31,270 bases of DNA, from the IMG/VR virus record IMGVR_UViG_3300010354_000352, positions 1 through 31,270 of that record; one strand, 5' to 3'. A program made the position numbers and the translations under genes. Positions 7,701 to 31,270 of the stretch are shown here, in pieces. This DNA comes from a virus. Position 1 is the stretch's first letter. Every line of letters starts with the position of its first letter. The notes beneath the pieces are model-generated. The model did no database searches. It saw nothing but the letters and a program-made list of their open reading frames with translations, and was not told where the DNA came from.

Positions 7701-8636
7701 ACCTTGTACGCCTTGATGCCCCTGAACACCTTGATGACCTTGAACACCTTGAAAACCTTGAGCGCCTTGTTCACCTTGTACGCCTTGATGACCTTGAACG
7801 CCCTGCGAACCTTGTCGTCCTTGAGAACCTTGCGAACCTTGTTCACCTTGAACACCCTGTGCTCCTTGAATTCCTTGAGCGCCTTGAACGCCTTGGAAAC
7901 CTTGTTCGCCCTGAACACCTTGAGCTCCTTGACGTCCCTGAGTGCCCTGTACGCCTTGAGATCCTTGATAACCTTGAAAACCTTGTGAACCTTGCTCACC
8001 CTGCACACCCTGTTCGCCTTGTACACCTTGCGCACCTTGACGACCCTGTGAGCCTTGAGCGCCCTGTACACCTTGATGACCTTGAATGCCTTGAGAACCT
8101 TGTGCGCCTTGAATACCCTGTGAACCTTGAATGCCCTGCTCACCTTGTACACCTTGGAAGCCTTGTGCACCTTGAATGCCCTGTTCGCCCTTTTGTCCTT
8201 TTTCACCTTGGCGACCTTGTGCACCTTGATAACCTTGATCGCCTTGTGGACCTTGATCGCCAGCTAAACCTGTGCCACCAACTTCACCTTTTTGTCCTTT
8301 GTCGCCTTGCGCACCAACTGTACCTTGCACACCTTGGTGACCTTGTACGCCTTGAAAACCCTGTGAACCTTGTTGACCTTGTGAACCCTGTGCGCCCTGC
8401 ACGCCCTGTGAACCTTGTGCGCCTTGAACACCTTGATAACCTTGTTCGCCAAATTCGCCTTTTTGACCTTTCTCGCCTTGCGCACCTTGTGCACCTTGAA
8501 CACCTTGTGGTCCTTGTGGACCTGCAAAGGCAGCAACTGTTTGATCCCAAGTCACTCCATTCCATTGATAAGTGACATCGCCAACAGTAAATAGTTGATT
8601 AAGCGTAGGTGAATCTGGAAAATTAGGTATTGACAT
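1788..8636 (-). CDS. Giant collagen-like tail fiber protein with three inserted globular domains
   Basis: The protein is 2282 aa. Residues 1-38 form a short head ([20 protein letters not shown]) typical of phage fiber leaders. Four collagen-like blocks follow, at about residues 39-480, 599-917, 1039-1315 and 1437-1836, totalling about 1438 residues or 479 triplets. They are almost all Gly-X-Gln with X = A, V, F, E, H, S, Y, R, D, N or I, and little proline. They are separated by three homologous domains of about 120 residues beginning GGATF and ending ITF(A/T)RTGD. The C-terminal 445 residues are a fiber module with [21 protein letters not shown], an [20 protein letters not shown] segment and QAN repeats, paralogous to the C-terminal half of the 982 aa protein upstream. 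It lies 5 nt after that gene. It is probably a very long homotrimeric fiber; the trimer is inferred from the collagen pattern. The frame is intact throughout, with no indel scars. Stop is TAA. Confidence 0.9.
2311..2436 (-). repeat. Three tandem 42-bp repeats (14-aa units, [13 protein letters not shown])
   Basis: Three near-identical 42-bp units at 2311-2352, 2353-2394 and 2395-2436 encode 14-residue repeats ([14 protein letters not shown] type) in the C-terminal part of the 2282 aa protein, about residues 2067-2108. The alanine/glutamine-rich pattern suggests a coiled-coil stalk after the collagen region. Confidence 0.85.
3129..4328 (-). repeat. Collagen-like block 4 of the 2282 aa protein
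   Basis: About 133 consecutive Gly-X-Y triplets, residues 1437-1836. Y is Gln in nearly all. Common units are [12 protein letters not shown] and GSQGFQ. The DNA has a strict 9-nt period without frame loss. It is followed by the non-collagenous C-terminal module starting [15 protein letters not shown]. Confidence 0.92.
4329..4691 (-). other. Inserted globular domain 3 (GGATF...ARTGD module)
   Basis: About 121 non-collagenous residues between blocks 3 and 4. It is closely similar to domain 2: both share [32 protein letters not shown] and [11 protein letters not shown]. The acidic, beta-rich pattern resembles small globular modules that interrupt phage collagen-like fibers. Function is unknown; a receptor-contact or trimer-registration role is inference. 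Confidence 0.8.
4692..5522 (-). repeat. Collagen-like block 3 of the 2282 aa protein
   Basis: About 92 Gly-X-Y triplets, residues 1039-1315, almost entirely Gly-X-Gln. There are a few non-Gln breaks such as GEIGAQ, GAVGAQ and GDVGAQ, and it ends in GRDGNFGG. Confidence 0.92.
5523..5885 (-). other. Inserted globular domain 2 (GGATF...ARTGD module)
   Basis: About 121 residues between blocks 2 and 3, homologous to domain 3 and more distantly to domain 1. It shares [36 protein letters not shown] and [13 protein letters not shown]. The flanks GRDGNFGG and ARTGD merge directly into the collagen register. Confidence 0.8.
5886..6842 (-). repeat. Collagen-like block 2 of the 2282 aa protein
   Basis: About 106 Gly-X-Y triplets, residues 599-917, dominated by [15 protein letters not shown] and GRQ. 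This block is richest in X = His, Tyr and Arg. Confidence 0.92.
6843..7196 (-). other. Inserted globular domain 1 (diverged GGATF module)
   Basis: About 118 residues between blocks 1 and 2. It aligns by eye with domains 2 and 3 ([54 protein letters not shown]) but is clearly more diverged from both than they are from each other. Confidence 0.8.
7197..8522 (-). repeat. Collagen-like block 1 of the 2282 aa protein
   Basis: About 147 Gly-X-Y triplets, residues 39-480. Its N-terminal end has charged triplets ([33 protein letters not shown]) that become sparse further in, where Gly-X-Gln takes over. The last triplets are [11 protein letters not shown]. Confidence 0.92.
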
Positions 8637-12479: not shown

Positions 12480-13865
12480 TTAACTGGTAGGTTTACTGCC
12501 GACCACAATAACGCTTGCATCTTGTGATATGAAGTATCGGGTTGCACGATTTCCTGAACTATAATTCCCAGACAATCCATAAGCAACTTCTGCATAACTG
12601 GTGGTTTTATCGATCAGTTGCAAATGACCACTTCCAAGATAATAGTATGTAGATTCAGCAGAATTTGGTTTTCTGGCACAGCCCATGACTGCAAAGTTTG
12701 CGTCTGCCATTGAAGTCGCAAAATTAAGTCTGTAAACATAAACTGTAACAGGGTAAGCGCGTCTTGGTATACCATCTTGAGTGTAAGAAGATATAGTTAT
12801 ACTTGAAATATTGTTACTCGATAAAATAGTGGGACTAAAACCAATAAACCCTCCGCTAAAGTTTGCATAAGCAGAAACGAGCTCTGGAACTATCGTATCT
12901 TCTCCAATTGTTCCTGTATAACCAGGGTCGCCTTTTTCGCCCTTTTCTGAAGTAGCAGCATTTGTGCCAGCGTCACCTAAAACACCCTTATCTCCTTTTG
13001 CTCCTTTTTCGCCCTTTGTTGCGCCGATTGACTCGCCCTTTTGTCCCTTTTCACCATCATCACCAATTTGCCCATAACCAAATTCACCTTTTTCCCCCTT
13101 TTCACCTTTTGTTCCTCCAATCACTTCGCCTGTTTCGCCAATTTCTCCTTGAAAACCCTGTGCGCCTTGCACACCTTGACTTCCAGAAACGCCAATATTA
13201 CCTTGAACACCTTGTGCACCCTGACTACCTGGCTGTCCTTTTTGACCTTTCTGACCTTTAATTCCTTTATTGCCATCATCTGGTAAAGAAATTTCGACTT
13301 CAACGTCAGTAACTTTAGTATTAGATGTGTTTGCAGCAGCAACTACCCCAACTATACTGTTGGCTAAAAAATTCAAACCACGATCAATACCTTGAAACAC
13401 ACCCTCAACATATAATGGTGTTTTTGATGGGTAAGCGTCACCTTGAATCCAACAAATACCAGAATCGTCAGTACCAACAACTAAATTAGTTGTGATGGTA
13501 TTTTGAGCATTGATAATTGTATTAGATACTAAATTTTTTGTTTGAATAGTATTTGCTACATCAAAAATAACTTTACTATTTGCAAATCTTGCATCATCAC
13601 CATGGTAATATGCTTCATCATTTACAATTTTTGTTTTTGTTGTAAAATTATTTTCGACATTGGCATTGGCAACCACACTCAATGTAGTACCTGTTTGTTT
13701 ATCAATATAAAGAGAACCATTTTTAATATTTAAAACTGGTCCTGAATCTTTATAATAATTTCCATTACGAAGATCATTTACTGAATTTGCAAGATCATTC
13801 GTTGCACCACGCCAGTCGCTGAACGTGTTGTTTAATGTTATGTGTGATATGTTTGCATTAGCCAT
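12480..13865 (-). CDS. Collagen-like fiber protein, paralogue B (461 aa)
   Basis: Residues 1-196 are a non-collagenous head beginning MANANISHITLNNTFSDWRG, with NDLANSVNDLRNG and an IITTNL-like strand region. Residues about 197-320 are collagen-like and rich in charged triplets (GIKGQKGQKGQPG, GTKGEKGEKGEFG, GATKGEKGAKGDKG). Residues 320-461 form a C-terminal beta domain containing FAVMGCARKPNSAE, YLGSGHLQL and a terminal SQDASVIVVG. Head and C-terminal domain are paralogous to the 470 aa protein immediately upstream, while the collagen parts differ in length register and composition. It starts 10 nt after that gene with a weak Shine-Dalgarno. It is inferred to be a short trimeric fiber; the C-terminal domain is the likely receptor-binding or trimerising end. 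Confidence 0.87.
   Translation of the reverse strand: MANANISHITLNNTFSDWRGATNDLANSVNDLRNGNYYKDSGPVLNIKNGSLYIDKQTGTTLSVVANANVENNFTTKTKIVNDEAYYHGDDARFANSKVIFDVANTIQTKNLVSNTIINAQNTITTNLVVGTDDSGICWIQGDAYPSKTPLYVEGVFQGIDRGLNFLANSIVGVVAAANTSNTKVTDVEVEISLPDDGNKGIKGQKGQKGQPGSQGAQGVQGNIGVSGSQGVQGAQGFQGEIGETGEVIGGTKGEKGEKGEFGYGQIGDDGEKGQKGESIGATKGEKGAKGDKGVLGDAGTNAATSEKGEKGDPGYTGTIGEDTIVPELVSAYANFSGGFIGFSPTILSSNNISSITISSYTQDGIPRRAYPVTVYVYRLNFATSMADANFAVMGCARKPNSAESTYYYLGSGHLQLIDKTTSYAEVAYGLSGNYSSGNRATRYFISQDASVIVVGSKPTS
12905..13275 (-). repeat. Collagen-like block of the 461 aa fiber (KGE/KGD type)
   Basis: About 40 Gly-X-Y triplets with several short interruptions (GEVIGGTKGE, GESIGATKGE, GTNAATSEKGE). 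It is lysine/glutamate rich, unlike the Gly-X-Gln blocks downstream. Confidence 0.85.
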
Positions 13866-13875
13866 TTATATAATC

Positions 13876-15288
13876 TTATTCTCTCACAACGATAACGTCA
13901 GCTTGTGATGGTATGTAGTAGGTGAGTTCGCGATCAGCTGCACCAGCAATCGCAAAAGCAACGACAACATAATTTGCATTTCGACTTAAAAGTTGTAAGT
14001 GACCCGATGCACTATACCAGTAATTTTTAGGATCACTTCCATAAACATATAACATTTCAGTATTGTTTGGTTTTCTTGCAGTACCAGCAACGGCATAGTT
14101 TTGATCAGTCATTGGAGTTATAAAATTAATTCGAATTTGAATCAGTGGTGTTACTGAATTCCAGAACCCACCATCATAATTTTTATTTTCCGTAACAGTG
14201 ATGCTTGAAACGTTGTTTGAACCATTAATTGTTATTGGGCTTGCTGGAATAATATCTCCTGGTAACATTGCTGAACCAGTAAATGAAACATAGGCTTTTA
14301 CAAGCTGAGTTGCGCCAGAAGGTGTTCCCTTATCGCCCTTTGAACCTTGAGCGCCTTGATCACCTTTTGCGCCTTTGTCGCCTTGTACACCAGCAGTGCC
14401 TTGACTTCCTTTGTCGCCTTTATCGCCTTTATCGCCAATATCGCCACTGCCACCAATTTCACCTTTTTGACCTTTATCACCTTGGAAACCTTTATCACCA
14501 GCACCTTGTTCGCCTTTATCGCCCTTTAATCCCGTACCACCAGTTCCAGGTTCACCCTTACCGCCTTGAACACCTTGACTTCCTTGTACACCTTGAAAAC
14601 CCTGTGCGCCTTGCACGCCTTGAAAGCCTTGATTGCCTTGAACACCCTGCGCGCCAACATCTCCAGGTGCACCCTTATCACCTTTAATGCCAGGATTACC
14701 AGCAGTACTTGGCGCATCAAATACAATATCAATAATTTTTGTATTTGAAACATTTGGTGTTACTGTAATGGCACCAATACCAGTTCCGCGAAAGTTGATA
14801 CCTCTTCTTGTAGCAACAAATGTACCATCTTGATACACTGGTGTTCTTGATGGTGCTGGGTCACCATTAATAACACATTCTCCATTAGAGTAATCAGAAC
14901 CAACAGTTAGATCTGTTGTGATGGTATTTTGTCCAGTAATTAAAGTATTAGAAACTAAATTTTTTGTGAAGATTGTATTTGAAACTTGTACATATGCAGC
15001 AGAATTTGTAAAACGCGCATTAGCCCCATTTACTGTAATGTCATCAGTTGATACAAATGTCTTAACTGTTAATTGATTTGCAACAGAAGCATCAGAAGCA
15101 ACAAATAGTGTCGTGCCAGTTGGTTTGGTAATGGTCACATTACCAGATCCGATAATTAAATCTCCGTTGTCTTTGACGTATGCGCCATTACGAAGATCAT
15201 TAACTGAATTAGCGAGCACATTTGTGATGACTCGCCATTCATTAAATGTATTGTTTAATTGTAATTGTGCTATATTTGCATTAGCCAT
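13876..15288 (-). CDS. Collagen-like fiber protein, paralogue A (470 aa)
   Basis: The head (residues 1-195) begins MANANIAQLQLNNTFNEWRV and contains NVLANSVNDLRNG, TITTDLTVGSD and a TPVYQDGTFVATRRGINF segment. Residues about 196-322 are collagen-like: first Gly-X-Gln style ([12 protein letters not shown]), then charged (GLKGDKGEQG, GDKGDKGDKGSQ). Residues 322-470 are a beta-rich end domain with YAVAGTARKPNNTEMLYVYG, ASGHLQLL and SQADVIVV. It is paralogous to the next gene downstream, giving a tandem duplication. The ATG at 15286-15288 overlaps the stop of the upstream 75 aa gene by 8 nt (ATGGCTAA), and a GGTAGAG-like Shine-Dalgarno lies inside that gene. Virion fiber role is inferred. Confidence 0.87.
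   Translation of the reverse strand: MANANIAQLQLNNTFNEWRVITNVLANSVNDLRNGAYVKDNGDLIIGSGNVTITKPTGTTLFVASDASVANQLTVKTFVSTDDITVNGANARFTNSAAYVQVSNTIFTKNLVSNTLITGQNTITTDLTVGSDYSNGECVINGDPAPSRTPVYQDGTFVATRRGINFRGTGIGAITVTPNVSNTKIIDIVFDAPSTAGNPGIKGDKGAPGDVGAQGVQGNQGFQGVQGAQGFQGVQGSQGVQGGKGEPGTGGTGLKGDKGEQGAGDKGFQGDKGQKGEIGGSGDIGDKGDKGDKGSQGTAGVQGDKGAKGDQGAQGSKGDKGTPSGATQLVKAYVSFTGSAMLPGDIIPASPITINGSNNVSSITVTENKNYDGGFWNSVTPLIQIRINFITPMTDQNYAVAGTARKPNNTEMLYVYGSDPKNYWYSASGHLQLLSRNANYVVVAFAIAGAADRELTYYIPSQADVIVVRE
14325..14700 (-). repeat. Collagen-like block of the 470 aa fiber
   Basis: About 41 Gly-X-Y triplets with one or two breaks (GEQGAGDKG). The first third is Gly-X-Gln and the remainder is GDKG/GQKG. 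It ends at GDKGTPSG before the C-terminal domain. Confidence 0.85.
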
Positions 15289-15509: not shown

Positions 15510-18224
15510 TTATCCCTTTGGTGTTGCAATTGTACGCATATCAAGAATACTTGGAAACACTGTTGGATCAGAAGAAACTAAAGCGATTTTAATCGCGAAA
15601 CTTTTAAATTTACCACCAATTGGATAAGTCGCGTTATTTTCAACATATTTAAGTTCACCATTTTCTAAACTTGGACGATATTCTATTTGTACTGGTGTAA
15701 CTTGATCCTTACTTGTGAAGTTAGTATATTTTTTCATTAACTTCCAAGATTTATTTGTAAATGGTTCAGGATCAAATCCTGAAAGGACTTTATAATAAAC
15801 GTGAACATCAGTACCAGGTGGTTTAATCATACGCAAGTAAACGCGCAAATCACCAGCATCAAATCCATCAGCAAGAACAATCTGCTTTGAAATATATTTA
15901 CTGAAAATATTACCGCCATTTCTATTTGTTTCGCCAGAAATTGAAGCCGTTGCTGTTGTGTTTCCTGAAGCGACTGGTGGTGCGGCAATTGTAATTGTTG
16001 GTGTGGTGATATAACCAAATCCAGGATTATCAATTATAATATGATCAATAGTGTTTGCTAATGGAGATCCTACTGTAGAATTTCTTACGGCATAGCCATT
16101 AGCGCCTGTACCATTACCATCTGGATCAGTAATTGTTACTGCTGCATTTGAGGTATATCCAGTACCAGAATTTGTAATAGAAATTTTACTATTTGAAATG
16201 CCTGCATTATTGATTACATTACGCATAGTAATAATACCGAGACGCTCTAGATTAATGATTGGCGACACGTCCGCGTCTGTTGTTACCATCTCTATTTGAG
16301 CATTGATACTTTGTTTAGATCCTGCACTCAACAAACGACGACGAGAAGAAGTCTTAATTGATGTGCTTAAATCGCCACCAAAACTGTATACTTTATTTGG
16401 CGAAATTGTTATGAAATCTGTGTCCATTGCGCCAGTGTTTGCAGATTTAGTCTTAATTTTATAATCAATATCTGTTGTTGAGAATGATGTTCCCGTTGAA
16501 TGCAAGAAAAGCCGATCCATCAATATCAAGTTAGTAGTCGGTGTATGTTGAAATCCAACTCTAGCGATAGTATCCTTAGTAAATGAACATTTATTAATAA
16601 CGAACATCAAGTCTTGATTTTGATATGGTGTCCACGTAGAAGCATTTTGTGAGCGGAAAAACGAACCAACATATGGTTGTTCTGAAACACGTCTTGGTGG
16701 ATTTGAGCCAAGAATATCTTGACCTAGTTCTGAAATAAACACTTCATAATCTGGAGATTCAGATTGAACAACTAAAGCATATTCAGTATCTGGAGCCAAA
16801 TATACTGGATCTGGAAAACTAAATTTTGTAAGTGTATCTGAGTCTGTGGCGTCTGGAATGTCGGAAGTTTTTACATCCTTCCACTCAACTGTCGCTACAG
16901 CAATAATTGTTTCTGTTGGAAATCCGTTTAGTGTGGTTACAATTCGACAGTTAACTGGAAACTGAACACCATCAATACCATCAACATCTGTTCCAGATTT
17001 AGGTTTTGCCTTAAAGAACAGATCAACACTGCTTACAAAAATGCCATAGTTTTGTTTTGGACTTTTTGGTACTGGAGTGAAGAATGTTTGAGCCACTGGA
17101 TCGCGACGACGTCGACGTGTTGTTGGTGGCTGTTCTCTTGGTGGTGTGACCACTTGTGTTGGTGGCGTTGCAACTGGTGGTGTAACGACAGTATTTACCA
17201 ATCCCAAGGCAGTATATTTTGCTGAAGCATACAAACCAATGTCAGAATCTTTTGCAGAAGTGCGATCAGTAATTACGAAAAGTTTTTCACCAATCGTAAA
17301 CTTAAAGTTTGGTGTTTCTGGGATATGAAAAATACCAGGAACTGTTCCAAAATCATCAACATAGGATTTACCAATTGAATATTTCGTATTTGTAGTAAAT
17401 GCGATTGTTGGTGCTACATTAAGAACAAGTTCAGTGCCATTAATCACATTGTCAATTGTACGAGCTTGACCTAAACCTGTGCCTGAAGCAATATAAACAA
17501 CGTTACCAACAATTGAACTTGAAACATTTGTTGAAGTGAAGAGCGTTCTAGTGTTGCCACTGTTTGCGCGGAAAACAATACCTGAATTATGTTCTGAACT
17601 TACGATAGTAAGTGTATTACCAGAATTTAGAGATCTGACAACTTGCGAGGCTGCAAATCGGTTGTTTGCAACAATGCTGGCTAGATTTGCAGAAAACCCA
17701 TCCCCACCAAGTTTATAAAGTATACTTGTTGCATTTCCAACCGCAACTTCACCAGAAACAGGAGAAAGAGCCAAAACAGCATTCGCATGATCCCAATGTT
17801 CAACCTTAGCAACGAAATTTCTATTAGCATATAACCCAGGCGAAGTCGCTGATGTTTGATATACAATGTCATTCGCCGCAAAATTTGTCTCAGAAAATGA
17901 ACCTGAAACTAAACTCATATTTGCAGTAATAAAATTTTCATTCAAATAAAGAATGTTATTGGCGGTTGATATGACTTTTGCGTATGCCTTTGATGTGTTA
18001 TTGATTATCCCGCCATTTTGAGAAAAATTAGAACTCGATACGTTTTGTGAAACCAAAAGTTTTGATGGTTTTTGTACAAAGTTATTTACAGCAACATCAT
18101 CAAAAAAGAAATTTACTTCTTTATCTGGTCGCAAATTTGTTCCAGTAAACAATACTTCTCTTGCGCGAATAAACGGAACAATTTGAGTAGTCGATGATGC
18201 TGTTTGTGTAGCGGTATCTGTCAT
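15510..18224 (-). CDS. Large virion structural (baseplate/fiber) protein with 'DPxAQTF' module
   Basis: The protein is 904 aa. The N-terminal segment has VPFIRAREVLFTGTNLRPD and NFFFDDVAVNNF, a motif pair found in large DUF4815-type phage proteins. Residues about 343-374 are a proline/threonine-rich stretch ending in five arginines, a likely flexible hinge. Next comes DPVAQTFF and a beta module (SSVDLFFKAKPKSG, LNGFPTETI, FSFPDPVYLAPDTEYALVVQ, QPYVGSFFRSQNASTWTPYQ, NQDLMFVINKCSF). Near residues 665-755 are two GxGY beta modules (SGTGY and PGFGY). The C-terminal end is beta-rich, ending TIATPKG. It is probably exposed on the baseplate or a fiber base. It starts 62 nt after the 224 aa gene with Shine-Dalgarno AAGG. 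Exact homologue unknown; structural role is fairly sure. Confidence 0.78.
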   Translation of the reverse strand: MTDTATQTASSTTQIVPFIRAREVLFTGTNLRPDKEVNFFFDDVAVNNFVQKPSKLLVSQNVSSSNFSQNGGIINNTSKAYAKVISTANNILYLNENFITANMSLVSGSFSETNFAANDIVYQTSATSPGLYANRNFVAKVEHWDHANAVLALSPVSGEVAVGNATSILYKLGGDGFSANLASIVANNRFAASQVVRSLNSGNTLTIVSSEHNSGIVFRANSGNTRTLFTSTNVSSSIVGNVVYIASGTGLGQARTIDNVINGTELVLNVAPTIAFTTNTKYSIGKSYVDDFGTVPGIFHIPETPNFKFTIGEKLFVITDRTSAKDSDIGLYASAKYTALGLVNTVVTPPVATPPTQVVTPPREQPPTTRRRRRDPVAQTFFTPVPKSPKQNYGIFVSSVDLFFKAKPKSGTDVDGIDGVQFPVNCRIVTTLNGFPTETIIAVATVEWKDVKTSDIPDATDSDTLTKFSFPDPVYLAPDTEYALVVQSESPDYEVFISELGQDILGSNPPRRVSEQPYVGSFFRSQNASTWTPYQNQDLMFVINKCSFTKDTIARVGFQHTPTTNLILMDRLFLHSTGTSFSTTDIDYKIKTKSANTGAMDTDFITISPNKVYSFGGDLSTSIKTSSRRRLLSAGSKQSINAQIEMVTTDADVSPIINLERLGIITMRNVINNAGISNSKISITNSGTGYTSNAAVTITDPDGNGTGANGYAVRNSTVGSPLANTIDHIIIDNPGFGYITTPTITIAAPPVASGNTTATASISGETNRNGGNIFSKYISKQIVLADGFDAGDLRVYLRMIKPPGTDVHVYYKVLSGFDPEPFTNKSWKLMKKYTNFTSKDQVTPVQIEYRPSLENGELKYVENNATYPIGGKFKSFAIKIALVSSDPTVFPSILDMRTIATPKG

Positions 18225-18286
18225 TTTATATTACCTTAAATTAAACTAAATTTGAACGATCCACGTTAAAAGTGTCGCGAATTTAA

Positions 18287-18961
18287 CTACTTACTCCTTG
18301 TTGTTGTTCTTCTAGAAGAGTCAATTCCAATAGAATTTCCCACAACCAAAGAATTGTCACCTGCATTTACGATCTGTTGCTGATCGGTTGGTCTTCCAAA
18401 AAAGTCATCAAGAGATGTGAGTGGACGCTGCCCGTCAACCGTTCTTTGTGTATTAACTGTTGAAGCAGGTTCAGAATTTAATACGCCCCAAATACTTTCT
18501 GTTGACCCATCAGCCAATACTGGAACATTTACACCAAACGTAGCAGAAAATAATCCACCAGTTAATTGCGTTGAATTGAATGGGGTAAGTGACGTTAATA
18601 ATAAATCTGTTGATGAATTTACTGGAAATATCGTTGAATTCAACACGCCTGGCTGTGTTGCTGCATTTACAAGACCATTAAATCCAAGAGCATCACCCGT
18701 TTGATTTGTTGTAGTAGGAACAAGTCTATCAGAAACAAATATGTCAGTTTCTGGATTTAATTTTAAGTAACCATCAAAACGTGCAAATTCATAAGGCTGA
18801 ACTGTGATGGCTTTGGTTGCTGTTGTTTGAGAAATAGCAGCCTCTTCTGTAAAATCCAATGTAATGGTTTTATCGTTTATTCTATAGCCACTTGTACCAG
18901 AGATTGCTGATGAGTGGATTAATTGAAGTGCTGTTTTTTCTACATACGGTCCTAATGCCAT
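18287..18961 (-). CDS. Structural protein fragment-like gene with DUF4815-associated motif
   Basis: The protein is 224 aa. Residues 28-75 contain KTITLDFTEEAAISQTTATK and VQPYEFARFDGYLKLNPETD, resembling the 'nVnPf...f.G...L.PssDxW' element that I know from the interior of large DUF4815-containing phage proteins. The rest is Ser/Thr/Asn-rich with no recognised domain, and the tail is basic (SSRRTTTRSK). The start is decided by AGGAG at 18968-18972 overlapping the amber stop of the upstream gene. The gene is in the same frame as that upstream 1026 aa gene, separated only by TAG and three codons. It is inferred to be a structural partner of the flanking 1026 and 904 aa proteins; function is otherwise unknown. 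Stop is TAG. Confidence 0.72.
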   Translation of the reverse strand: MALGPYVEKTALQLIHSSAISGTSGYRINDKTITLDFTEEAAISQTTATKAITVQPYEFARFDGYLKLNPETDIFVSDRLVPTTTNQTGDALGFNGLVNAATQPGVLNSTIFPVNSSTDLLLTSLTPFNSTQLTGGLFSATFGVNVPVLADGSTESIWGVLNSEPASTVNTQRTVDGQRPLTSLDDFFGRPTDQQQIVNAGDNSLVVGNSIGIDSSRRTTTRSK

Positions 18962-18967
18962 TTTATA

Positions 18968-18973
18968 CTCCTA
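18968..18973 (-). promoter_or_regulatory. Shine-Dalgarno TAGGAG overlapping an amber stop
   Basis: On the minus strand, the TAG stop of the 1026 aa gene is the first part of TAGGAG, 6 nt before the next ATG (TAGGAGTATAAAATG). It supports re-initiation at 18961 rather than amber readthrough. Confidence 0.75.
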
Positions 18974-21900
18974 CTCTATTGACGCCAAAAAGTCGTCATT
19001 AGTGATATCTGCGGTCAAAAAGCCATCAAATGTGTCAACAACAATACCATATTTTTCTTTTTCGCGTAAATTATCTTCGTATAGAATTGCTGTATCTGAT
19101 GCGAGAGCTTCTATTTGTGTTAATGATGTGTATATTTCTAATGCCTCAATTCTCTTCTCGAGTGTTCCTATGTCGCGCATTGTGAAGCGTTTATTTTCGA
19201 CATATTGTAGTGCAATTTCAGCAACATTTGCTGCGTAAGCAGGAGAATTGATCAGGTATAATGTCATACCATCGTCTTGATCTGCTGGTGGGATTGGATT
19301 AATCGCTGAAGTGCCTGTTCGAATTTTAAATTCTTTATCTTTTGTCAAAATAAGTTTGTCAATTCTAGGTAGATAAAATTGATATGACAATTCCATTACT
19401 TCAGATGGTTTTTGCACCTTTCCGCCAAAATAAGTTTCAGAAGGCTGACCGACGGTTCTTGTTGGTCTAAAATCAACGCAGTCACGAAGATTGTAATAAC
19501 CACCACTTTGACCATAATAAATTGGAATTGCTCCAGAAGCATATTCTGTTGCTGGGTATGAGTCTACATTAAAGTAACCAGAGGATGCGCCAGCTGAGTG
19601 GTCATAATATTTAATAAGGGCAACGATTTGACCTTTTGGTGCATTATAGCCAGGTTTTAATACAAGGCTTGCATGATCATAAAAATTATCGCGCTGACCA
19701 CCATCAAGATAATAGTGTTTTGTGATATCAATTGCATTATCAACATTTGGTGCATAATTAATATCACCAGAGTCAAAAACTTTAATTAATTGAACAACAT
19801 CTGGAACATAAAGGCTCATTGGGACGCCAGGTTCAGTTTCAATTGGACCTGCACTAGTAAACCAAACATGTCCACGCACAGCATCAATTTTAACAGAAGC
19901 GCCTATAGGTGCGCCAACTGATGTGCCATTACTTGGTGTGTCTGTTGCTGTTAGTACTGTATTTGATGTATTACCAACAACAGTTTTACGACGGCGCGCA
20001 ACAGTTTCTGTTTGCGTATCATCAACTTTTACAGTCATTAAAATATCAGCAACAATTGCTGCACTTGTACCTGTGTATATTGTTATCGATTTTTCATTAG
20101 TTTGGTAAATGCCAGAAGTTCCTGTTGTCAAGTCAACAATGCTACCATTTGAATATACTGTGGATCCAGCATTACTGCGAATAATAACCATTAAATCTGT
20201 ATTTGCTTGAGTATCAGATACAAAACTGCCTGTTCTACCAAAAGTGAACGATTCTCCCGTTGAGAGATGTCCGCCGCCATCTGATAAGGTTATTTGACCA
20301 TTGCTTGTGAAAGTTAAATTTGTTAAAACTTTTCTATGGTAATAGTCTGCGTTTGTGATCGATCCGTTTGCTAGGTAATTTTGACCTAAACGGAAAATCA
20401 TTGTATTTAAATTCGTATCAGTTAGATAAGTATTGCTTGTAGCATCTTTGCTGTCTGAATGAATATCCATTGTAGCATAAACGCTGCGTATAGTATTCCA
20501 ATTAGAATCTGCTGCTGAAGGCGCATATGCTAATGAATCTAAATCTTTAATAGCAAAATCTAAACGAGCTGTGCCACTTGGTGTTGCGGTAAATGGAGTG
20601 CTCACCGTCGCAACTTTGGTACTACCAACATAATTAATAATTTCTCGACTATCGCCAGTAGAATTAACAGTAACAGTTACATTTGTATATGCGTTATCAG
20701 TAGATGAAAAGTCTGTTGGTAAGGTAATAGTTGTTGATGTGCCACTGACTACCGTAAATGATAATGGTTGTACATTGGCGTCACAAATATATGTTTTATA
20801 AACTGTTGCTGACTCGCGATCAAAATTGCGAATTTTAGCAGTACCAATACGAGTATTTGCGTATGTTCCAAAAGAATATTTGTCAACATTTGCGCTATTA
20901 ACACAGTGCAAATCAACAGTTGGTAATGCAAAATTAAAGAAACCTTGATTACTTGATTGAACATTAGCAACGTACAAATAATTGCCATACTCAATGTTCA
21001 AATCATAATCGTTTGATGTTTGTCTATCGCGCGCTTTTCTATGAAGAATTTGTGTTGGACCAACAGTTTCAAATTCAAATCCTTTAACGTATGCTTTTCC
21101 TGGATCCAAATTGATAAAATAAGTATTACCAGTTGCGTCTTTCGTATTAGCAGATAAAGTTGCTCTAAAGTTTCTAACTGTGTAATCGCCAGATTCATCG
21201 AAAGTTCTACGAGCAAGAGTTTTTTCAAGTTCAGAATAAATTGGATATTTGACTTGTTTAGTGATTATGCCATTTTCGACGCGCAATAACTCGAAGAAAC
21301 GAGAATCATCGGTACTTGTTAATGATCTTGTTGTCAGTCTTAATGAAAACTGATAGCGATGAGCGCCAGGTGCACCTTCGTTTGAAGCGCCGAGTGCTGG
21401 ATCTAATAAAGTTGAATCTTGAGATTCATCAACAACATCAGTTTCAATTTGCAAACCGATCTTAGCCGATGGGGTTATACCGTAAGGATCTAGAGTAATT
21501 GTTTGCGGTAACACTTTAACGAAGAAACCACTGGCGTAAAATACACCTTCTTCGATACTTACTGTCGTTCCTGTCCCAACAGCACCAGTTAAAATTGTTT
21601 GAGCATAATACGTTGTAGCGCCCACAGTACGCAGCGTTTCATTATTTGTAAATGCACCGCGCATCATCTTCACCATGAGAGTTGGTGAACTTCCTGGAAC
21701 TGAGGAAGTATATGCCGCAATCACACGACCACGTTTAACCTCAGCCTGGCTATTTTGTATAACCAATTTGCCTACAAAATTATCAAGATCAATATCTTCA
21801 TTATTATAGGTTGGAAATAGTTTTACATAAGATACATTATTGTCGATGGTTAATTGACCACCAACAACTGGACTACCATCTTTGAAAATATGGTCACCAA

Positions 21901-22051
21901 ACTTCTTGATTTGATCTTGAATAATCGTTTGAAGTTGAGTTAATTCTCTTGCCTGCACCGCATATTCTGGGCGAAACAGAATTCGCACATAATTATTATC
22001 TTCATCAAAATCATCATAATAAGGTGCGCCAGTAAATGTATCGATTCCCAT
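18971..22051 (-). CDS. DUF4815-type phage baseplate/fiber structural protein
   Basis: The protein is 1026 aa. The N-terminal region carries the signature I associate with DUF4815: YYDDFDEDNNYVRILFRPEY, QARELTQLQTIIQDQI and FGDHIFKDGSPVVGG within residues 11-66. A beta domain with EEGVFYASGFFVKVLPQTITL and GPGAHRYQFSLRL-like strands follows. The middle is a long Thr/Asn-rich beta region. The later part has GHVWFTSAGPIETEPGVPMS, the NLRDCVDFRPTRTVG element and a C-terminal helical segment (MRDIGTLEKRIEALEIYTSL). Proteins of this family are virion structural components at the baseplate or proximal fiber of T4-like phages; which site cannot be told here. It starts 10 nt after gp8 with AAAGGTAT as Shine-Dalgarno and ends in TAG, in frame with the next gene. 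Confidence 0.85.
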   Translation of the reverse strand: MGIDTFTGAPYYDDFDEDNNYVRILFRPEYAVQARELTQLQTIIQDQIKKFGDHIFKDGSPVVGGQLTIDNNVSYVKLFPTYNNEDIDLDNFVGKLVIQNSQAEVKRGRVIAAYTSSVPGSSPTLMVKMMRGAFTNNETLRTVGATTYYAQTILTGAVGTGTTVSIEEGVFYASGFFVKVLPQTITLDPYGITPSAKIGLQIETDVVDESQDSTLLDPALGASNEGAPGAHRYQFSLRLTTRSLTSTDDSRFFELLRVENGIITKQVKYPIYSELEKTLARRTFDESGDYTVRNFRATLSANTKDATGNTYFINLDPGKAYVKGFEFETVGPTQILHRKARDRQTSNDYDLNIEYGNYLYVANVQSSNQGFFNFALPTVDLHCVNSANVDKYSFGTYANTRIGTAKIRNFDRESATVYKTYICDANVQPLSFTVVSGTSTTITLPTDFSSTDNAYTNVTVTVNSTGDSREIINYVGSTKVATVSTPFTATPSGTARLDFAIKDLDSLAYAPSAADSNWNTIRSVYATMDIHSDSKDATSNTYLTDTNLNTMIFRLGQNYLANGSITNADYYHRKVLTNLTFTSNGQITLSDGGGHLSTGESFTFGRTGSFVSDTQANTDLMVIIRSNAGSTVYSNGSIVDLTTGTSGIYQTNEKSITIYTGTSAAIVADILMTVKVDDTQTETVARRRKTVVGNTSNTVLTATDTPSNGTSVGAPIGASVKIDAVRGHVWFTSAGPIETEPGVPMSLYVPDVVQLIKVFDSGDINYAPNVDNAIDITKHYYLDGGQRDNFYDHASLVLKPGYNAPKGQIVALIKYYDHSAGASSGYFNVDSYPATEYASGAIPIYYGQSGGYYNLRDCVDFRPTRTVGQPSETYFGGKVQKPSEVMELSYQFYLPRIDKLILTKDKEFKIRTGTSAINPIPPADQDDGMTLYLINSPAYAANVAEIALQYVENKRFTMRDIGTLEKRIEALEIYTSLTQIEALASDTAILYEDNLREKEKYGIVVDTFDGFLTADITNDDFLASIE

Positions 22052-26600: not shown

Positions 26601-26757
26601 ATGCTTTGGTATAGAAAATCGTACCACCTTCTTCAGAATCTTCCAACCATTCGTAATATGCTTTCAAAAAGGCAACAAACTTCTGATGCTCGTCAGCAAC
26701 AAACGCTGGAACCTGCGTTTCAATTAAGTTGGATATATTTTCAAAAAGTTTAGCCAT
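23650..26757 (-). CDS. gp7: Baseplate wedge protein gp7-like
   Basis: The protein is 1035 aa. Residues about 25-150 contain FVAFLKAYYEWLEDSEEGGT, a helical stretch, then RIQELYRTKGGIDAYKFLFR and VLYNKDVEVYY. This closely matches a block in the C-terminal part of T4 gp7 (STKGIEASYKFLFKVLYN). Residues 815-860 contain YQTYSYVLIVEEALNKYKNT and LLHTTGSTLFGQY, which I associate with gp7 of marine T4-like phages. Between them lie several GxGY beta modules (AGLGY, SGAGY, GGTGY, RGEGY). In T4, gp7 is the core organiser of the wedge, joining gp6, gp8 and gp10. Its ATG overlaps the gp6 stop (TAATG). It has no clear Shine-Dalgarno, so coupling to gp6 is likely. Position between gp6 and gp8 supports the call. 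Confidence 0.85.
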   Translation of the reverse strand: MAKLFENISNLIETQVPAFVADEHQKFVAFLKAYYEWLEDSEEGGTIFYTKALRDAIDIDKIDSSLSSLNDAFTKNYLKYIPLEKEDDDEDTNTTQTNFDREKLAKRIQELYRTKGGIDAYKFLFRVLYNKDVEVYYPKTDILKTSDGKWTIPQAVRLTLSTDLEGLDTNLLKNRKLYGEKSRTEAVIEAAYKTVDRDSGREILEIFVTRKDERPFTAGEYVIIDYVDGNGLKQQIREKLIGSISNVKVGPLYEEVTQKATETEIELYDEITEEEKQIFYNDYVARNSIEGSISKSGRPIVFRRGTKYRGLEVDPETNAITYPGDPVVFYGGLAKTPDSIKAEAYVKNVTSGGVQTIDLVDAGLGYRTFPNTYVTTLTPTEGHSANIYVRSVDTGNAVNITVNTDSIEYKKDIELQAANFLFDNIGTSTIATTLGQAFTFNDVEVAPLKLVDVRQSGAGYKSPPEIEFETFYGSDLVLDEDGMVEIDTTPLAGPNNRSLYLSTDPVTYYEGSYVLIVQRNSLATREMRKIVQAVPQEDESILLVVDRTFSSLINENVKVFVENRPRMKDLGQVANVRIIAGGTGYSVNDLILFNSSTSIGYGANAHVASVGGIGNITEITVTERGEGYYVAPDVSVQTTGGSGAILVAGILSNNEIANTVVDGYGEIQDFRITQRGFDYISTPSVSLKIKDIYVKPTDVFDKIIVSGERVWQNTGATTDFTALIDFYDEDNSMLRLYNYSGTLNVQNTFTTANIVASSNVTFNIAQYSNGTYKVITYGDGRAKAYATWQNGLINYDGYFLNNDGFLSSSKRLQGPRKYQTYSYVLIVEEALNKYKNTVMSLLHTTGSTLFGQYNVDRNLNLQAKDITINVGILSAVTGAINANGSSLIIDGVDTSFTSTANANDIIVIDTGNTYREQSKYIVDVISDTSLELESNLSFIGLGRGNVTSDTAIVTIYDTSVSLTSFLTIGDLITINVANTSNSSNSVIITKEIAAINDVTKRITCNSIFDGVNANGKIYVVSPFYEEVNYKIIPGT

Positions 26758-28820
26758 TATTTCGTAATTGGTGTCAATCTAACGGAAATACTTTCTGGAT
26801 CATCAAAATTCACAGTCAATATTTTATTTTGACTTGATTCAAAAACTGTATTTTCGGGTTTAGCGTGCATGCTTAATTGTTTAAATTCGTTTAGAACGTC
26901 TAAAATTGTGATTTCTGTAATTTCAACCATTCCAGTAGAATAATCAATTGTACCAATACTTTCATTCACAAAAACCTTTATTTGATTTGCATCAAAATAG
27001 TACATTCTTAAATTGCCAGTTTTTCCTTGAATCACAACCTTACCTGTTCCACCCCTTGCTTCTGGTCCCCCACCAGAAATTCTAGCAATTGCTGTTGTGT
27101 ATTCTGAACCTCTTTTTAAGACATTAATAGATTTAATTCTACCATTTACAATAACAGCCTCAGCTGTTGCGCCAGTTCCATCCCCAATAATTTCAACGGT
27201 TGGGGTTTCAGTATATCCTGTGCCAGGATTTAACACCTCAATAGTATCAATTCCCGAATATGAGAATGGCGTTTCTTCAATAAAACAAGTTCTAATTACA
27301 TTACTTGAATCTGCAACTTCAAATCCAGGAGAAGAATATAAACGATTTTCTGTTGTTCCGCGAGCAAGTGGAATACCAAAATCTAATTTATACGTTCTAT
27401 TGTTATTCAACACAGGCTTAAATTTTTTCTGCACAAAAATATTTAATTCATTACTCAAAACTGCTGGATCAGCATCATCAATTTTTCTTGTGAGTCTTGA
27501 TGCTCTAAATGTTGAATTGAACTTGTTAAGTTCTTGATTGACAAAGGTCGTAATCGCACTTTTTATAGAAGTTTCAATTTGCGATGGAGTTTTATTTGTT
27601 TTTAGAGGATCATATGTGGCACGAATACCAAAATTTAAATAGTTGTAATCAGCATCAACAAACTCTGGCGTAATCGTTAAAATGCTAATTGGTTTTAGAA
27701 TTTCTTCTTTAAGGTATTCCTTTTCAACTTCAGTTATTTCAAATCCGTCTCTTGGTTTTGCTGAAATGAATACTCTACCGTATTGTGGTGGAATCACTTC
27801 ATCACCACCCCAAACCGTAACAGAATCAAAATATGGGTATTTTTTATTAATAAGCGCAATATAGTCGTTTTTCGTAACTGCTCGATTTTGCGACAAGTAT
27901 GCTTTTGGTGCGCTGAAGCGAATACTTTCAATCGATTCGATGTCAGCACCAGAAGCCGCAGTTTGTACCGTAGTGACAGATATATTACTAAATCCATCTA
28001 GGCTATCAATTAATGAAAAGGTGTTTGCTTTATTTGCGAGAGGACCGTCAGTGATTAAATAACTTACAATAAGAATATTACCATCTTCTAGTCTTTTACC
28101 TAGGACATTATCGCCGAAATAAATTTGATATTTGCTATTGTCAACTTCATCAATATAGTAAACTGCACTGGTTGCTTCAACAACAGGAGCATCTTCTGCG
28201 AGTACAAACCTTTCAGTTTGAAGATTTGTGGGCGATTTTTGCACAGTAACTTCAATAGTTGAAGTATCGATACCAGTATCCGTTAACTTAAAATTTTGTT
28301 TTGGGTTTGTTAAGTCATCAACAATAAAAGTATAAACTAATGGTGTTCCTTGTTTAATTACCGCATTAGGTAAAGAAAACTTTCCATTTTTCTTTTCTAA
28401 AATATTATCTTTTAAAATAACAAACGGAAAATTTGAACCGTTTATATTTTCACTTCTAAAACGAGTAAATCGTGGAACTAAAAGTAGGTTTTGATTGCTT
28501 TCACCTTCACCAGGTGTGATGTCTAAATTGATTCTCGCAATTGGGGCAACTCTTGATCTTGGCATATACCCTAAAAGTTTAGCGTGCGAAACAACTGACG
28601 AGCGAAGATCAGCAGTATCCATAAACATTTCGTTTGCGATCATGTTAGTGTAATATGACATATAGTGCGTATTGTACGCAAGAATATCCATAAGGATATT
28701 CAAACCTGATCCTTCAAAATCGTAGTCTGTGAATTCTGGTTTAGATTTAATAAAGTTTTTCAGATTATCCTTAATAGTCTGAAATTCTAATTCAGTTATT
28801 CGAATTTTCGATTCTGCCAT
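26757..28820 (-). CDS. gp6: Baseplate wedge subunit gp6 (baseplate J-like)
   Basis: The protein is 687 aa; T4 gp6 is about 660 aa. The N-terminal helical part reads LEFQTIKDNLKNFIKSKPEF, then DYDFEGSGLNILMDILAYNT and ANEMFMDTADLRSSVVSHAK, and a LLGYMPRSR motif. This is the characteristic baseplate-J/gp6 opening. It continues with YQIYFGDNVLGKRLEDGNIL and FSAPKAYLSQNRAVTKNDYI, typical of the central J-like domain. Around residues 500-580 an inserted patch has the GxGY module (NPGTGYTETPTVEII). gp6 forms the continuous ring linking wedges around the hub in T4. It starts 10 nt after gp25 with AGG as a modest Shine-Dalgarno and its stop overlaps the next gene by 1 nt. Confidence 0.93.
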   Translation of the reverse strand: MAESKIRITELEFQTIKDNLKNFIKSKPEFTDYDFEGSGLNILMDILAYNTHYMSYYTNMIANEMFMDTADLRSSVVSHAKLLGYMPRSRVAPIARINLDITPGEGESNQNLLLVPRFTRFRSENINGSNFPFVILKDNILEKKNGKFSLPNAVIKQGTPLVYTFIVDDLTNPKQNFKLTDTGIDTSTIEVTVQKSPTNLQTERFVLAEDAPVVEATSAVYYIDEVDNSKYQIYFGDNVLGKRLEDGNILIVSYLITDGPLANKANTFSLIDSLDGFSNISVTTVQTAASGADIESIESIRFSAPKAYLSQNRAVTKNDYIALINKKYPYFDSVTVWGGDEVIPPQYGRVFISAKPRDGFEITEVEKEYLKEEILKPISILTITPEFVDADYNYLNFGIRATYDPLKTNKTPSQIETSIKSAITTFVNQELNKFNSTFRASRLTRKIDDADPAVLSNELNIFVQKKFKPVLNNNRTYKLDFGIPLARGTTENRLYSSPGFEVADSSNVIRTCFIEETPFSYSGIDTIEVLNPGTGYTETPTVEIIGDGTGATAEAVIVNGRIKSINVLKRGSEYTTAIARISGGGPEARGGTGKVVIQGKTGNLRMYYFDANQIKVFVNESIGTIDYSTGMVEITEITILDVLNEFKQLSMHAKPENTVFESSQNKILTVNFDDPESISVRLTPITK

Positions 28821-28830
28821 TTTAAATAAC

Positions 28831-29226
28831 CTATCTTAATCTTTCTAGAAAGAGACTTATTGTTACGGGTTCCAAACGATTTACGATGAAAAATTCAATT
28901 GTTATGTTATAACCCTGATTATCATAATCTGATTGAACATAAACATTACGAAGTTTCACGCGAGGCTCATAGTTAGCAATTGTCAATTCAATTTCTTTTT
29001 GTAGTAAAATGCCAGTTTCCGCAGTCATTGGCTCAAACAATAAACGGCGAACATTCGACCCGATAGAGGGATTGAATGGTTTTTCAAAATAGTTCAAAAG
29101 AATTAAATTTTTAACCGCAGTCACAATTGCACGATCGCCAATTTTTCGATTGACGTCCTTGGTAACTGGATTGGCGCCGAAATTTAAGTCCAAATCAGCA
29201 TATGTTCTTGATACGTTTGATGCCAT
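28831..29226 (-). CDS. gp25: Baseplate wedge subunit / sheath initiator gp25 (GPW/gp25 family)
   Basis: The protein is 131 aa, the same size as T4 gp25 (about 132). It shows the family pattern: DLDLNFGANPVTKDVNRKIG at the N-terminus, AIVTAVKNLILLNYFEKPFN, GSNVRRLLFEPMT, and the conserved EPR motif at residues 87-89 (ANYEPRVKLRNVYVQ), followed by a C-terminal beta strand ending LFLERLR. In T4-like phages gp25 joins wedge to sheath and starts sheath assembly. It is the first gene after a 36-nt gap with a late-promoter-like octamer, and is followed by gp6 after 10 nt. I see no strong Shine-Dalgarno. Stop is TAG. Confidence 0.96.
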   Translation of the reverse strand: MASNVSRTYADLDLNFGANPVTKDVNRKIGDRAIVTAVKNLILLNYFEKPFNPSIGSNVRRLLFEPMTAETGILLQKEIELTIANYEPRVKLRNVYVQSDYDNQGYNITIEFFIVNRLEPVTISLFLERLR

Positions 29227-29262: not shown

Positions 29263-31270
29263 TTATGCAAGACGATGATATCCTGTCTTGTATAGTCGAT
29301 GATTATTGAATGTTGCGTTCTTAACGACCGCTGTACCTGCTGGTCTGTTACCAGCCTTATTATATGAAATATGAATCCAAGGTAATCCTGAACCCGTCGT
29401 TTTATATTCAAGTAACAATTGATCATGTGGCACGTTATCGCGAATCCATAGCGCAACTTCGTAGTATTCCGTTTTTGACATTCCTGGGAACTGTAAGTCT
29501 GCAGCCTGTCCAGTTTCATGTTGCGACTTACCCGCCGCACTACCCTGTGGCGTTCTAAATGCGTTGGTAACAATCATAGTTGAATACTTTTCTTTAATTG
29601 GGTCTAAGCAGTTCATTGCTAAGAGCTTAAGATTGCAAACAATTTCGGCTTTAGTGAGTCCACGTTGCGGTATAACTGGTTGTTTTTCCACTATGGCGTT
29701 CGAAGAAAGTTTACCCAAATTCCAATACTTGGATAACATCATATTTGGATCAAATTCTTCTTGGTCATTCTCAATGCCACACTCATTTGTACCCTTCGAT
29801 GGCGCTTTTGGTGGCTCGGTGTTTGCATCGGTTGTTGCGATATCTTTCAGTTCAGACTTATCATAAACGCCCTTGTCGATCTGCTTTTTAATCCATTCAT
29901 CAGCGCCCTTTTCGCCAGCATCAAAGAAGAATCCTGCGCGATCGGCTGGTGTTGGTTCAATAAACCCAGCGGATGGATTACCGCATTTGGTTCCCGCACT
30001 CAATACACCTGCAACTAAAGAACTACCGTCCTTCAGACCACCCAATGCACCAGAAAGTGGACCAAGTTGCGCCTCAAAGTTAGAGAATTTGGTGATATCT
30101 GCCGTAGCCGTCAATCCTTTAGTTATATCTTTAATAGCACCAACATCGGCTGCAGCGCCTGATAATCCGTTTGCAAGGCTTTTAATTTCCCCCATATTCT
30201 TACCGAGGTTTTCAAATCCACCCGCAACTGCCTTGAGATCCGCAAAACCTTTTAATTCATTTGCTATGTCAGATACGCCTTTAATATTATCTGCTAATCC
30301 ATTCAGATTATTACTAAAGTCTGAGAGACCAGTAATTCCATCTTTAAATCCACCAATGTTACTTAAATCTGTTGGTAAACTATTAATCTTTTCAGATAAC
30401 TCTAATATCTTACCTGTTGACGCAGAACCTGCAATTGTTTGAATGTCTGTACTTGAATTTTTAATGTCGGTAAGATTGTCGACGATAGTATTAAACTTAG
30501 ATAAGTTTGGTATCTTTTCAGCGATTTCTGGTATTGCTGCGATTTTATTTACGTTACTCAACACTTCATCTAATTTTCTTATTTTACCAAGTTCTACAGT
30601 AGCATCCGATATTTTTTCTAACTGAGCTGTAGCATCTTTAAATTTAGTTGCACCATCCAGCATTTTGGAAACATCTTGAATATCGCCAAGTTGGCTTTTA
30701 AGTTGTTCCAAATCAAATCCTGCACCAAGTTGATCTTTAATTTTGTCAGTAAATTCTGTGAGTTTTGAGATTTCTCCAAACTTTTCTGTAATGCTGTTCA
30801 AATCGCCAAGTTTTGCACTTATGTCACCAATGTTTCCAAGACTGCTTTGTAGTGATTCAAGATTTTCTAGTCCTGGAAGTTTAGTGAGCATATCCATACC
30901 AGGGATATTCGCTAAACTTGTTAATCCGCCTAATGCACCAGTTAATTGCGAAACGCTTGCTGCGACTGTTCCCGCTGCTGTTGTCGCAGCTGCTGCAGCA
31001 CCTGCAGCAGCACCTGCAGCAGCATCAGCACCTGCTGCAGCCTCTCCACCACCACCACCACTTGCTGTTGGTGAAGGTAAAAAGTCATTTGAAACCGCAA
31101 GACCACTTTTACCAATAATAACTGCTGGCGCATCAACATCAAGTAGGAACCCACCATTAATGCGCGTTGCGGCGAGAGAAGAAACAGCCACTTGAGCGCC
31201 ACTAATCTTCACAGAACCCATGGCGTTTATTTTAACATCCTTTTTCGCATTTAGATCAATGGTACAATCA
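29263..31270 (-). CDS. gp5: Baseplate hub/needle protein (gp5-like C-terminal part) with M15 peptidase domain, 5' end outside window
   Basis: An internal ATG at 31221 gives 652 aa, but the frame is open to the window edge (16 more codons), and those codons are coherent with what follows (DLNAKKDVKINAMGSVKISG), so the true start lies outside. Order: a short-repeat beta strand region resembling the gp5/VgrG beta-helix; a Gly/Ala-rich linker (31050-30950); about 300 residues of amphipathic leucine-rich helical repeats (LGDLNSITEKFGEISKLTEF type); then a C-terminal M15-type (D-Ala-D-Ala carboxypeptidase-like) domain. Putative zinc ligands are His at 29518-29520 and Asp seven residues on (QHETGQAADL) and His at 29371-29373 (PWIHISY), with DQLLLEY between, holding the probable catalytic Glu. 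It would cut peptidoglycan peptides during penetration. The hub call rests on the beta-helix and on position before gp25. Confidence 0.78.
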   Translation of the reverse strand, partial: DCTIDLNAKKDVKINAMGSVKISGAQVAVSSLAATRINGGFLLDVDAPAVIIGKSGLAVSNDFLPSPTASGGGGGEAAAGADAAAGAAAGAAAAATTAAGTVAASVSQLTGALGGLTSLANIPGMDMLTKLPGLENLESLQSSLGNIGDISAKLGDLNSITEKFGEISKLTEFTDKIKDQLGAGFDLEQLKSQLGDIQDVSKMLDGATKFKDATAQLEKISDATVELGKIRKLDEVLSNVNKIAAIPEIAEKIPNLSKFNTIVDNLTDIKNSSTDIQTIAGSASTGKILELSEKINSLPTDLSNIGGFKDGITGLSDFSNNLNGLADNIKGVSDIANELKGFADLKAVAGGFENLGKNMGEIKSLANGLSGAAADVGAIKDITKGLTATADITKFSNFEAQLGPLSGALGGLKDGSSLVAGVLSAGTKCGNPSAGFIEPTPADRAGFFFDAGEKGADEWIKKQIDKGVYDKSELKDIATTDANTEPPKAPSKGTNECGIENDQEEFDPNMMLSKYWNLGKLSSNAIVEKQPVIPQRGLTKAEIVCNLKLLAMNCLDPIKEKYSTMIVTNAFRTPQGSAAGKSQHETGQAADLQFPGMSKTEYYEVALWIRDNVPHDQLLLEYKTTGSGLPWIHISYNKAGNRPAGTAVVKNATFNNHRLYKTGYHRLA

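Follow-up and report, generated by a model that had tools for sequence, protein, structure and literature searches.

Which activity does a T4-like phage use to open the wall of its host, and where on the central spike is that activity carried? The question is raised by an open reading frame at one end of the window, by which we mean the whole IMG/VR record analysed here, 31,270 bases whose minus strand encodes baseplate and fibre proteins of a T4-like phage. The ORF had originally been predicted to encode a baseplate hub protein that ends in an M15-type peptidase, placing a peptide-cutting activity beyond the needle, and thus to suggest entry by cleavage of cross-links rather than, or in addition to, glycan strands.

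The hub gene and its neighbours

The hub ORF is the first minus-strand gene and stays open at the window edge. Its 668 residues cover the last two-thirds of a gp5-type central spike, and run from beta-helix strands through a Gly/Ala-rich linker and a predicted helical region to a C-terminal domain. An ATG at 31221 was rejected as the true start, since in relatives the protein continues for ~279 residues ahead of the first residue in the window. The features of the hub and of the two adjoining baseplate genes are as follows.

29263..31269, minus: gp5-type central spike (hub) gene, 668 codons visible of ~947, 5'-truncated at the contig end
31072..31269, minus: beta-helix needle, C-terminal part (residues 1-66), aligned to residues 280-345 of the full-length relative L003
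30940..31071, minus: Gly/Ala-rich linker (residues 67-110), from the sequence
29986..30939, minus: decad-repeat region (residues 111-428; regular at ~131-420), hydrophobic period ~3.30
29755..29985, minus: conserved pre-M15 segment (residues 429-505), partly common to other M15 hubs, from alignment
29266..29754, minus: M15-type zinc peptidase domain (residues 506-668), from Pfam and PHROG matches, alignment and predicted structure
29554..29556, minus: R572, invariant arginine (FR), predicted substrate contact, from alignments with inferred role
29518..29520, minus: H584, predicted first zinc ligand (SQHxxGxAxD), from alignments
29497..29499, minus: D591, predicted second zinc ligand, from alignments
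29407..29409, minus: E621, predicted active-site glutamate (LLLEY), from alignments with inferred role
29371..29373, minus: H633, predicted third zinc ligand (WIHIS), from alignments
28831..29226, minus: gp25-like baseplate wedge, 131 residues (PF04965, E 8.4e-9; phrog_261, E 3.4e-45)
26757..28820, minus: gp6-like baseplate wedge, 687 residues (PF21379, E 4.7e-23; phrog_219, E 1.7e-165)

Elsewhere in the window, a 2282-residue fibre protein (1788-8636, minus) has many matches to collagen-like tail-fibre families, and four more collagen-like fibre genes lie at 3-845, 8642-11590, 12480-13865 and 13876-15288. Three consecutive ORFs of 1026, 224 and 904 residues (15510-22051, minus) match different parts of phrog_358 (2056 positions), which would be compatible with a split gene. 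A 296-residue protein at 889-1779 matches Laminin_G_3.

Full-length relatives identify a gp5-type hub with an empty middle slot

A scan of viral contigs yielded 15 loci with close relatives of the window hub (68-85% identity in the best segment), among them full-length copies of 947-954 residues. The 947-residue copy, L003, matched Pfam Gp5_OB (PF06714) at residues 42-122 with E 1.1e-8 and PHROG 430, 'baseplate hub subunit and tail lysozyme', with E 7.1e-80; in the full-length relatives, the phrog_430 match covers the beta-helix at 147-312. By phmmer, L003 residues 12-120 aligned to residues 8-124 of T4 gp5 (PDB 1PDL) and residues 184-269 to T4 376-461, which correspond to the OB fold and the start of the beta-helix. 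The genes of the relatives follow the T4-type order of tail-tube cap, gp53, phrog_350 tail protein, gp5, gp25 and gp6. A model of the full-length hub had a mean pLDDT of 51.6 and was uninformative on packing; we used it only for secondary structure and for the Foldseek ranking, in which T4-type gp5 structures came out on top despite the poor model. From these matches, we assign the window ORF to the gp5-type hub proteins, presumably homotrimeric, and not to the T4-type tail lysozymes. The hub claim is thereby borne out by OB fold, beta-helix and baseplate gene cluster, and since the sequence upstream of the window's edge holds a hub fold in the relatives, the check proposed for the 5' part falls in the hub's favour. 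At one locus (L010:3506-4036), the hub gene is broken between its OB and beta-helix parts, by either a sequencing error or a real split.

The lysozyme domain of T4 gp5 is given as residues 174-339 (PMC7650644). It is included in T4 residues ~125-375, for which L003 has no aligned counterpart, ~60 residues filling that slot; the T4 lysozyme segment thus lacks a counterpart in the window clade. Neither Pfam nor PHROGs gave a lysozyme-domain match in the N-terminal part of the full-length relatives, tblastn with the T4 and Cr30 lysozyme pieces found no match in the window clade, and no T4-type lysozyme domain was detected between the OB fold and the beta-helix. A hidden N-terminal lysozyme was rejected on these blank results. 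The contrast drawn with T4 gp5 therefore holds, in that no middle lysozyme was found and the M15 domain follows the needle. Of the two options for entry, the cutting of peptides 'rather than' glycan strands fits better than 'in addition to', because the window-clade hub gave no match to a lysozyme or any other glycosidase domain.

The C-terminal domain is predicted to have an M15 fold with intact ligands

The C-terminal domain matched PHROG 894, 'endolysin', at E 2.2e-18 over residues 507-648, and Pfam Peptidase_M15_3 at E 4.8e-4 with 20.7 bits, just under the curated cut-off of 23.2. Against M15-type Pfam models, Astolliot scored 24.7 bits, above the cut-off, and the best member of set A2 reached E 1.1e-6. 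R572, H584 and D591 are invariant in all 46 distinct M15 segments taken from 80 loci, as are E621 and H633 in the 45 segments that reach that far, one segment being truncated. The scan that supplied the 80 loci selected on two peptide patterns, one of which includes the glutamate, so that the invariance of E621 is partly built in, and the three ligands and the arginine lie outside both patterns. In a broader alignment that includes stand-alone endolysins and PAAR-fused copies, all five residues are kept in 11 of 11 sequences. We take HxxxxxxD followed by a further H to be the M15 zinc-ligand pattern, matched here by H584, D591 and H633, and we assume for all five residues the roles of M15 enzymes in general. 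A chance match was ruled out by the phrog_894 E-value together with the residue invariance in both alignments.

We used AlphaFold2 to model the last 173 residues of the window protein with 45 aligned sequences, giving a mean pLDDT of 88.3 and a pTM of 0.87. Foldseek against the PDB ranked the zinc DD-peptidase 1LBU first at E 0.02, with nothing at E <= 0.001. VIA-align superimposed the model onto 1LBU with Z 10.9 (rmsd 3.5 over 131 residues), followed by Hedgehog structures (Z ~6) and later Ply500 (4.3) and MepA (4.0). Against BFVD, the first match was the hub of Pseudomonas phage pf16, and 28 matches had E <= 0.001. We base the fold on this second look by VIA-align and on BFVD rather than on Foldseek against the PDB alone. 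Profile HMMs built from the M15 alignments found no M15 structure in the PDB; a Fic protein returned by a PDB profile search at E 0.2 was judged to be a chance match. The C-terminal domain, as modelled, has an M15 fold, and its predicted His/Asp/His ligands, originally described as apparently intact, are present and invariant in distinct relatives. Profile match, modelled fold and ligand residues together uphold the prediction of an M15-type C-terminus.

Nei-Gojobori dN/dS was 0.020-0.064 for the M15 domain in all eight pairs compared; for the linker and decad region, seven of the eight pairs gave 0.040-0.193 and the remaining one was saturated. Only the direction of these values is trustworthy, since dS is mostly >1 and synonymous sites are mostly saturated. 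The M15 domain is under purifying selection.

A decad repeat separates needle and peptidase

The long helical region of the original prediction is indeed predicted to be helical, and is more specific than claimed, being a decad repeat with a period of 3.30. Residues ~131-420 (L003 ~410-700) repeat the pattern hxxhxxhxxx in ~29 decads, placing ~290 residues between needle and peptidase. Over the 318-residue region, hydrophobicity has its strongest spectral peak at a period of 3.305, where the power is 34.3. On the control grid, decad power was 31.5 for the window and 33.2 for L003, against a 99th percentile of 9.6 in 300 shuffles of the L003 region; power at the heptad period of 3.5 was 0.0-5.3 in 50-residue windows of the window protein. 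The length of the region hardly varies, at 318, 318, 318, 318 and 317 residues in the window and four relatives.

Power of at least 15 was reached by 11 of 232 ORFs of at least 300 codons from the collected loci, the next highest value being 9.0. The 11 comprise eight window-clade hubs and three tail fibres, the latter chosen for resembling the decad region: Achromobacter Axy10 (L119), Synechococcus S-TIP37 (L120) and Roseobacter CRP-171 (L121). The decad region matches these fibres by tblastn at E 1e-5 to 9e-3 with 19-26% identity, a likeness that may stem from the common period and not from descent. Where phmmer paired the decad region with leucine-rich-repeat proteins, with a designed coiled coil and with others, we put the matches down to periodicity, and Foldseek with the helical region matched many unrelated bundles and was uninformative. 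The decad stalk of the window clade is the new element; it is otherwise seen in phage tail fibres.

Hartmann and colleagues take 10/3 residues per turn as the assumed lower limit of coiled coils and describe even single stammers as strained (PMC4786415). A run of ~290 residues at this assumed limit implies that the stalk is either extremely supercoiled or no classical coiled coil, and it can serve to test the limits of coiled-coil geometry. The Axy10 decads match residues 51-219 of a solved '60 kDa protein' (9LC0/9YF4/9YF5; E 2.1e-21 for 9LC0), so that such repeats may already have a solved fold, although the hub decad region matches it only at E 0.033.

The middle slot varies among M15 hubs

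To describe the layouts of M15 hubs, 20 incomplete ORFs and 12 identical copies were removed from the 80 loci, leaving 48 distinct complete ORFs that still include near-identical ORFs and Cr30 itself (L081). A beta-helix shares the ORF with M15 in 47 of the 48, including the Melnitz and Cr30 types; one has neither OB nor beta-helix. A VanY-containing ORF lies directly upstream of the M15 ORF in 25 of the 48 (the OB fold is seen there in 23, two loci being cut). The window clade with its decad region accounts for 8, with the OB fold in a separate frame in L010, while OB and beta-helix without any middle enzyme found account for 6, a GH19 middle slot for 6, and a Cr30-type lysozyme for 2, one of them in an upstream ORF. 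Pfam agrees in outline over the 48 ORFs, with Gp5_OB (PF06714, E 0.01) in 45, GH19 in 6 and Phage_lysozyme2 in 1. Judged from these domain matches, the middle slot appears to hold a lysozyme, VanY, GH19 or nothing, the last being the state of the window clade. The GH19 chitinase-like middle slot with C-terminal M15 occurs at L096:2986-5802 and at L038, L039, L043, L059, L066 and L075. In Methylophilales phage Melnitz (L018:2419-5459), and likewise for the 25 ORFs with an upstream VanY, gp5 is split into an OB and VanY ORF followed by a beta-helix and M15 ORF, giving two peptidase-type domains per hub.

The loci were drawn with hub-type M15 patterns, so that this sample carries no information on the frequency of hubs without M15. 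In a search of 50,697 phage records at E 1e-5, the window protein matched 89 and the full-length hub 2,358, from which the M15 form appears to be a minority among hubs, the 89 also including stand-alone endolysins. The difference from T4 that had been pointed out is real, but it is not peculiar to the window phage, being common to pf16, Melnitz and Cr30; the general layout recurs in several known phages, which makes the window hub a variant and nothing wholly new.

M15-like domains on PAAR proteins and the position of the enzyme

A related C-terminal M15-like domain is carried by PAAR-first proteins of 328-340 residues in Astolliot, Aura, Paride, Vibrio 1.244 and Vibrio 207E48.1. The PAAR motif is present in all five; a Pfam M15-type model matched three at E 0.05, and the other two were found by tblastn only. 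The PAAR and M15-like genes, from Pseudomonas and Vibrio phages, are located as follows.

L097:4943-5944
L105:3374-4378
L106:3491-4510
L107:3512-4498
L108:3533-4516

These proteins resemble PAAR-fused effectors of the type VI secretion system (T6SS). PAAR proteins cap spikes, and the fusions thus support, without proving, a tip position for M15 on gp5. From the order of the domains and from these fusions in other phages, the M15 domain of the window hub would lie distal to the needle, though the ~290 intervening residues could fold back. Of five named M15 phages searched for PAAR, three (Cr30, BUCT-ZZ01 and Astolliot) gave a match, Melnitz a weak one and pf16 none; ten records from the window clade and its closest relatives, each of them a fragment, yielded none either.

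Proposed role in entry

We consider it probable that the hub is a T4-type spike in which the middle lysozyme is absent and the C-terminal M15 zinc peptidase is the recognised wall-cutting activity, used at entry. Contraction of the tail sheath would drive the needle through the outer membrane. Three M15 domains, tethered past the beta-helix by the Gly/Ala linker and the decad stalk, would then arrive in the periplasm and cleave peptide bonds in the peptidoglycan, making a local gap in the wall through which the tail tube can pass, unaided by any glycosidase on the hub itself. L-Ala-D-Glu endopeptidases, too, occur among the M15 enzymes of phages. Thus, even though the best fold match is a DD-peptidase, both the D-Ala-mDAP cross-link and the stem peptide are candidate substrates.

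The domain could instead act mainly at lysis, either late, like an endolysin, or in lysis from without, its fusion to the spike being incidental or the domain being processed off. The name of the nearest profile, phrog_894, would suit this, as would stand-alone relatives from Pelagibacter and Caulobacter phages, whose annotations read endolysin or peptidase M15, and T4 gp5 is itself described as cleaved in maturation (PMC7650644). We nevertheless find a lysis role improbable: a soluble endolysin needs neither the beta-helix with which M15 shares its ORF in almost every case nor the PAAR tip proteins on which it sits elsewhere, and the gene lies within the baseplate gene cluster. About as unlikely, in our estimation, is that M15 is auxiliary to a glycosidase on another virion protein, entry still depending on glycan cutting. 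The full-length hub has no glycosidase domain match and none was found in the other large window proteins scanned (the 2282-residue fibre against PHROGs only), while the Laminin_G_3 match, to a lectin/glucanase superfamily, is more likely a binding domain; yet the genome of the window phage is incomplete and dual equipment is common, with Phage_lysozyme2 and M15 in Cr30, GH19 and M15 in others, and VanY and M15 in the Melnitz type. That the domain is an inactive enzyme or serves for binding, like the Hedgehog proteins that share its fold and are its next best fold matches, seems least likely of all, and very much so, given the invariance of the three ligands, the glutamate and the arginine, the purifying selection, and a zinc peptidase as top fold match.

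Beyond the preferred reading of a peptidase used at entry, we entertain, while leaning somewhat against it, a joint reading of stalk and tip. The fibre-type stalk of ~29 decads could form a central lance on which the enzyme is projected, or tethered, far beyond the needle tip, and the group could use the tip of the spike as a cargo site in a T6SS-like manner, with M15 on the spike C-terminus or the PAAR cap and an exchangeable second hydrolase (lysozyme, VanY, GH19 or none) in the middle slot. The swap of middle-slot enzymes on one scaffold offers a natural experiment to ask which bond has to be broken at entry.

Comparison with known systems

Databases already contain this combination of domains: in Cr30, PHROG 430 runs from the OB fold to M15, and BFVD and UniProt titles name the domains on unnamed viral proteins. 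Among titles and abstract openings in the open-access literature, we found no paper describing M15 on a gp5-type hub. The Melnitz paper states that no lysin-like gene besides gp67 is present in the phage (PMC9004378), whereas the Melnitz hub ORFs carry VanY-like and M15-like domains, which are weak by Pfam and clear by tblastn and PHROG. A review assigns the endopeptidase activity of virion-associated lysins almost exclusively to phages of Gram-positive bacteria (PMC6116005). T4-like M15 hubs in Pseudomonas, Caulobacter, Methylophilales and Synechococcus phages, together with the PAAR copies of Pseudomonas and Vibrio phages, would leave that rule incomplete.

T4 gp5 (PDB 1K28, 1PDL) shares with the window clade the OB fold, the start of the beta-helix and the position in the baseplate cluster. 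It differs in its middle lysozyme, in ending at the needle and in having a separate PAAR protein, gp5.4, whereas in the window clade the middle slot is empty and M15 follows the needle. The pf16 hub, gp208, is similar in having OB, beta-helix and C-terminal M15 with no middle enzyme by Pfam, but has 510 residues, a short linker and no decad region. Among named phages, Melnitz ranks first as a relative of the gp6-like protein and, judged by E-value, of the hub M15 domain; its two-ORF hub likewise has a beta-helix and C-terminal M15 (52.6% identity in M15), with OB and VanY in a separate upstream ORF. The hub of Caulobacter phage Cr30 also has OB, beta-helix and C-terminal M15, but carries Phage_lysozyme2 in the middle and is accompanied by a separate downstream PAAR gene. 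The PAAR-M15 proteins have a related M15-like domain, apparently at the spike tip, borne on the PAAR cap and not on gp5. 1LBU shares the M15 fold, but is a cellular enzyme with 13% identity. Finally, the hubs Deep-Blue Gp189 and Vp4 Gp110 are described as having a C-terminal NlpC/P60 peptidase and being lytic in vitro (PMC11406892), and so set a precedent for a lytic hub that ends in a peptidase; they differ from the window hub in peptidase family, in their Gram-positive host and in belonging to another hub family.
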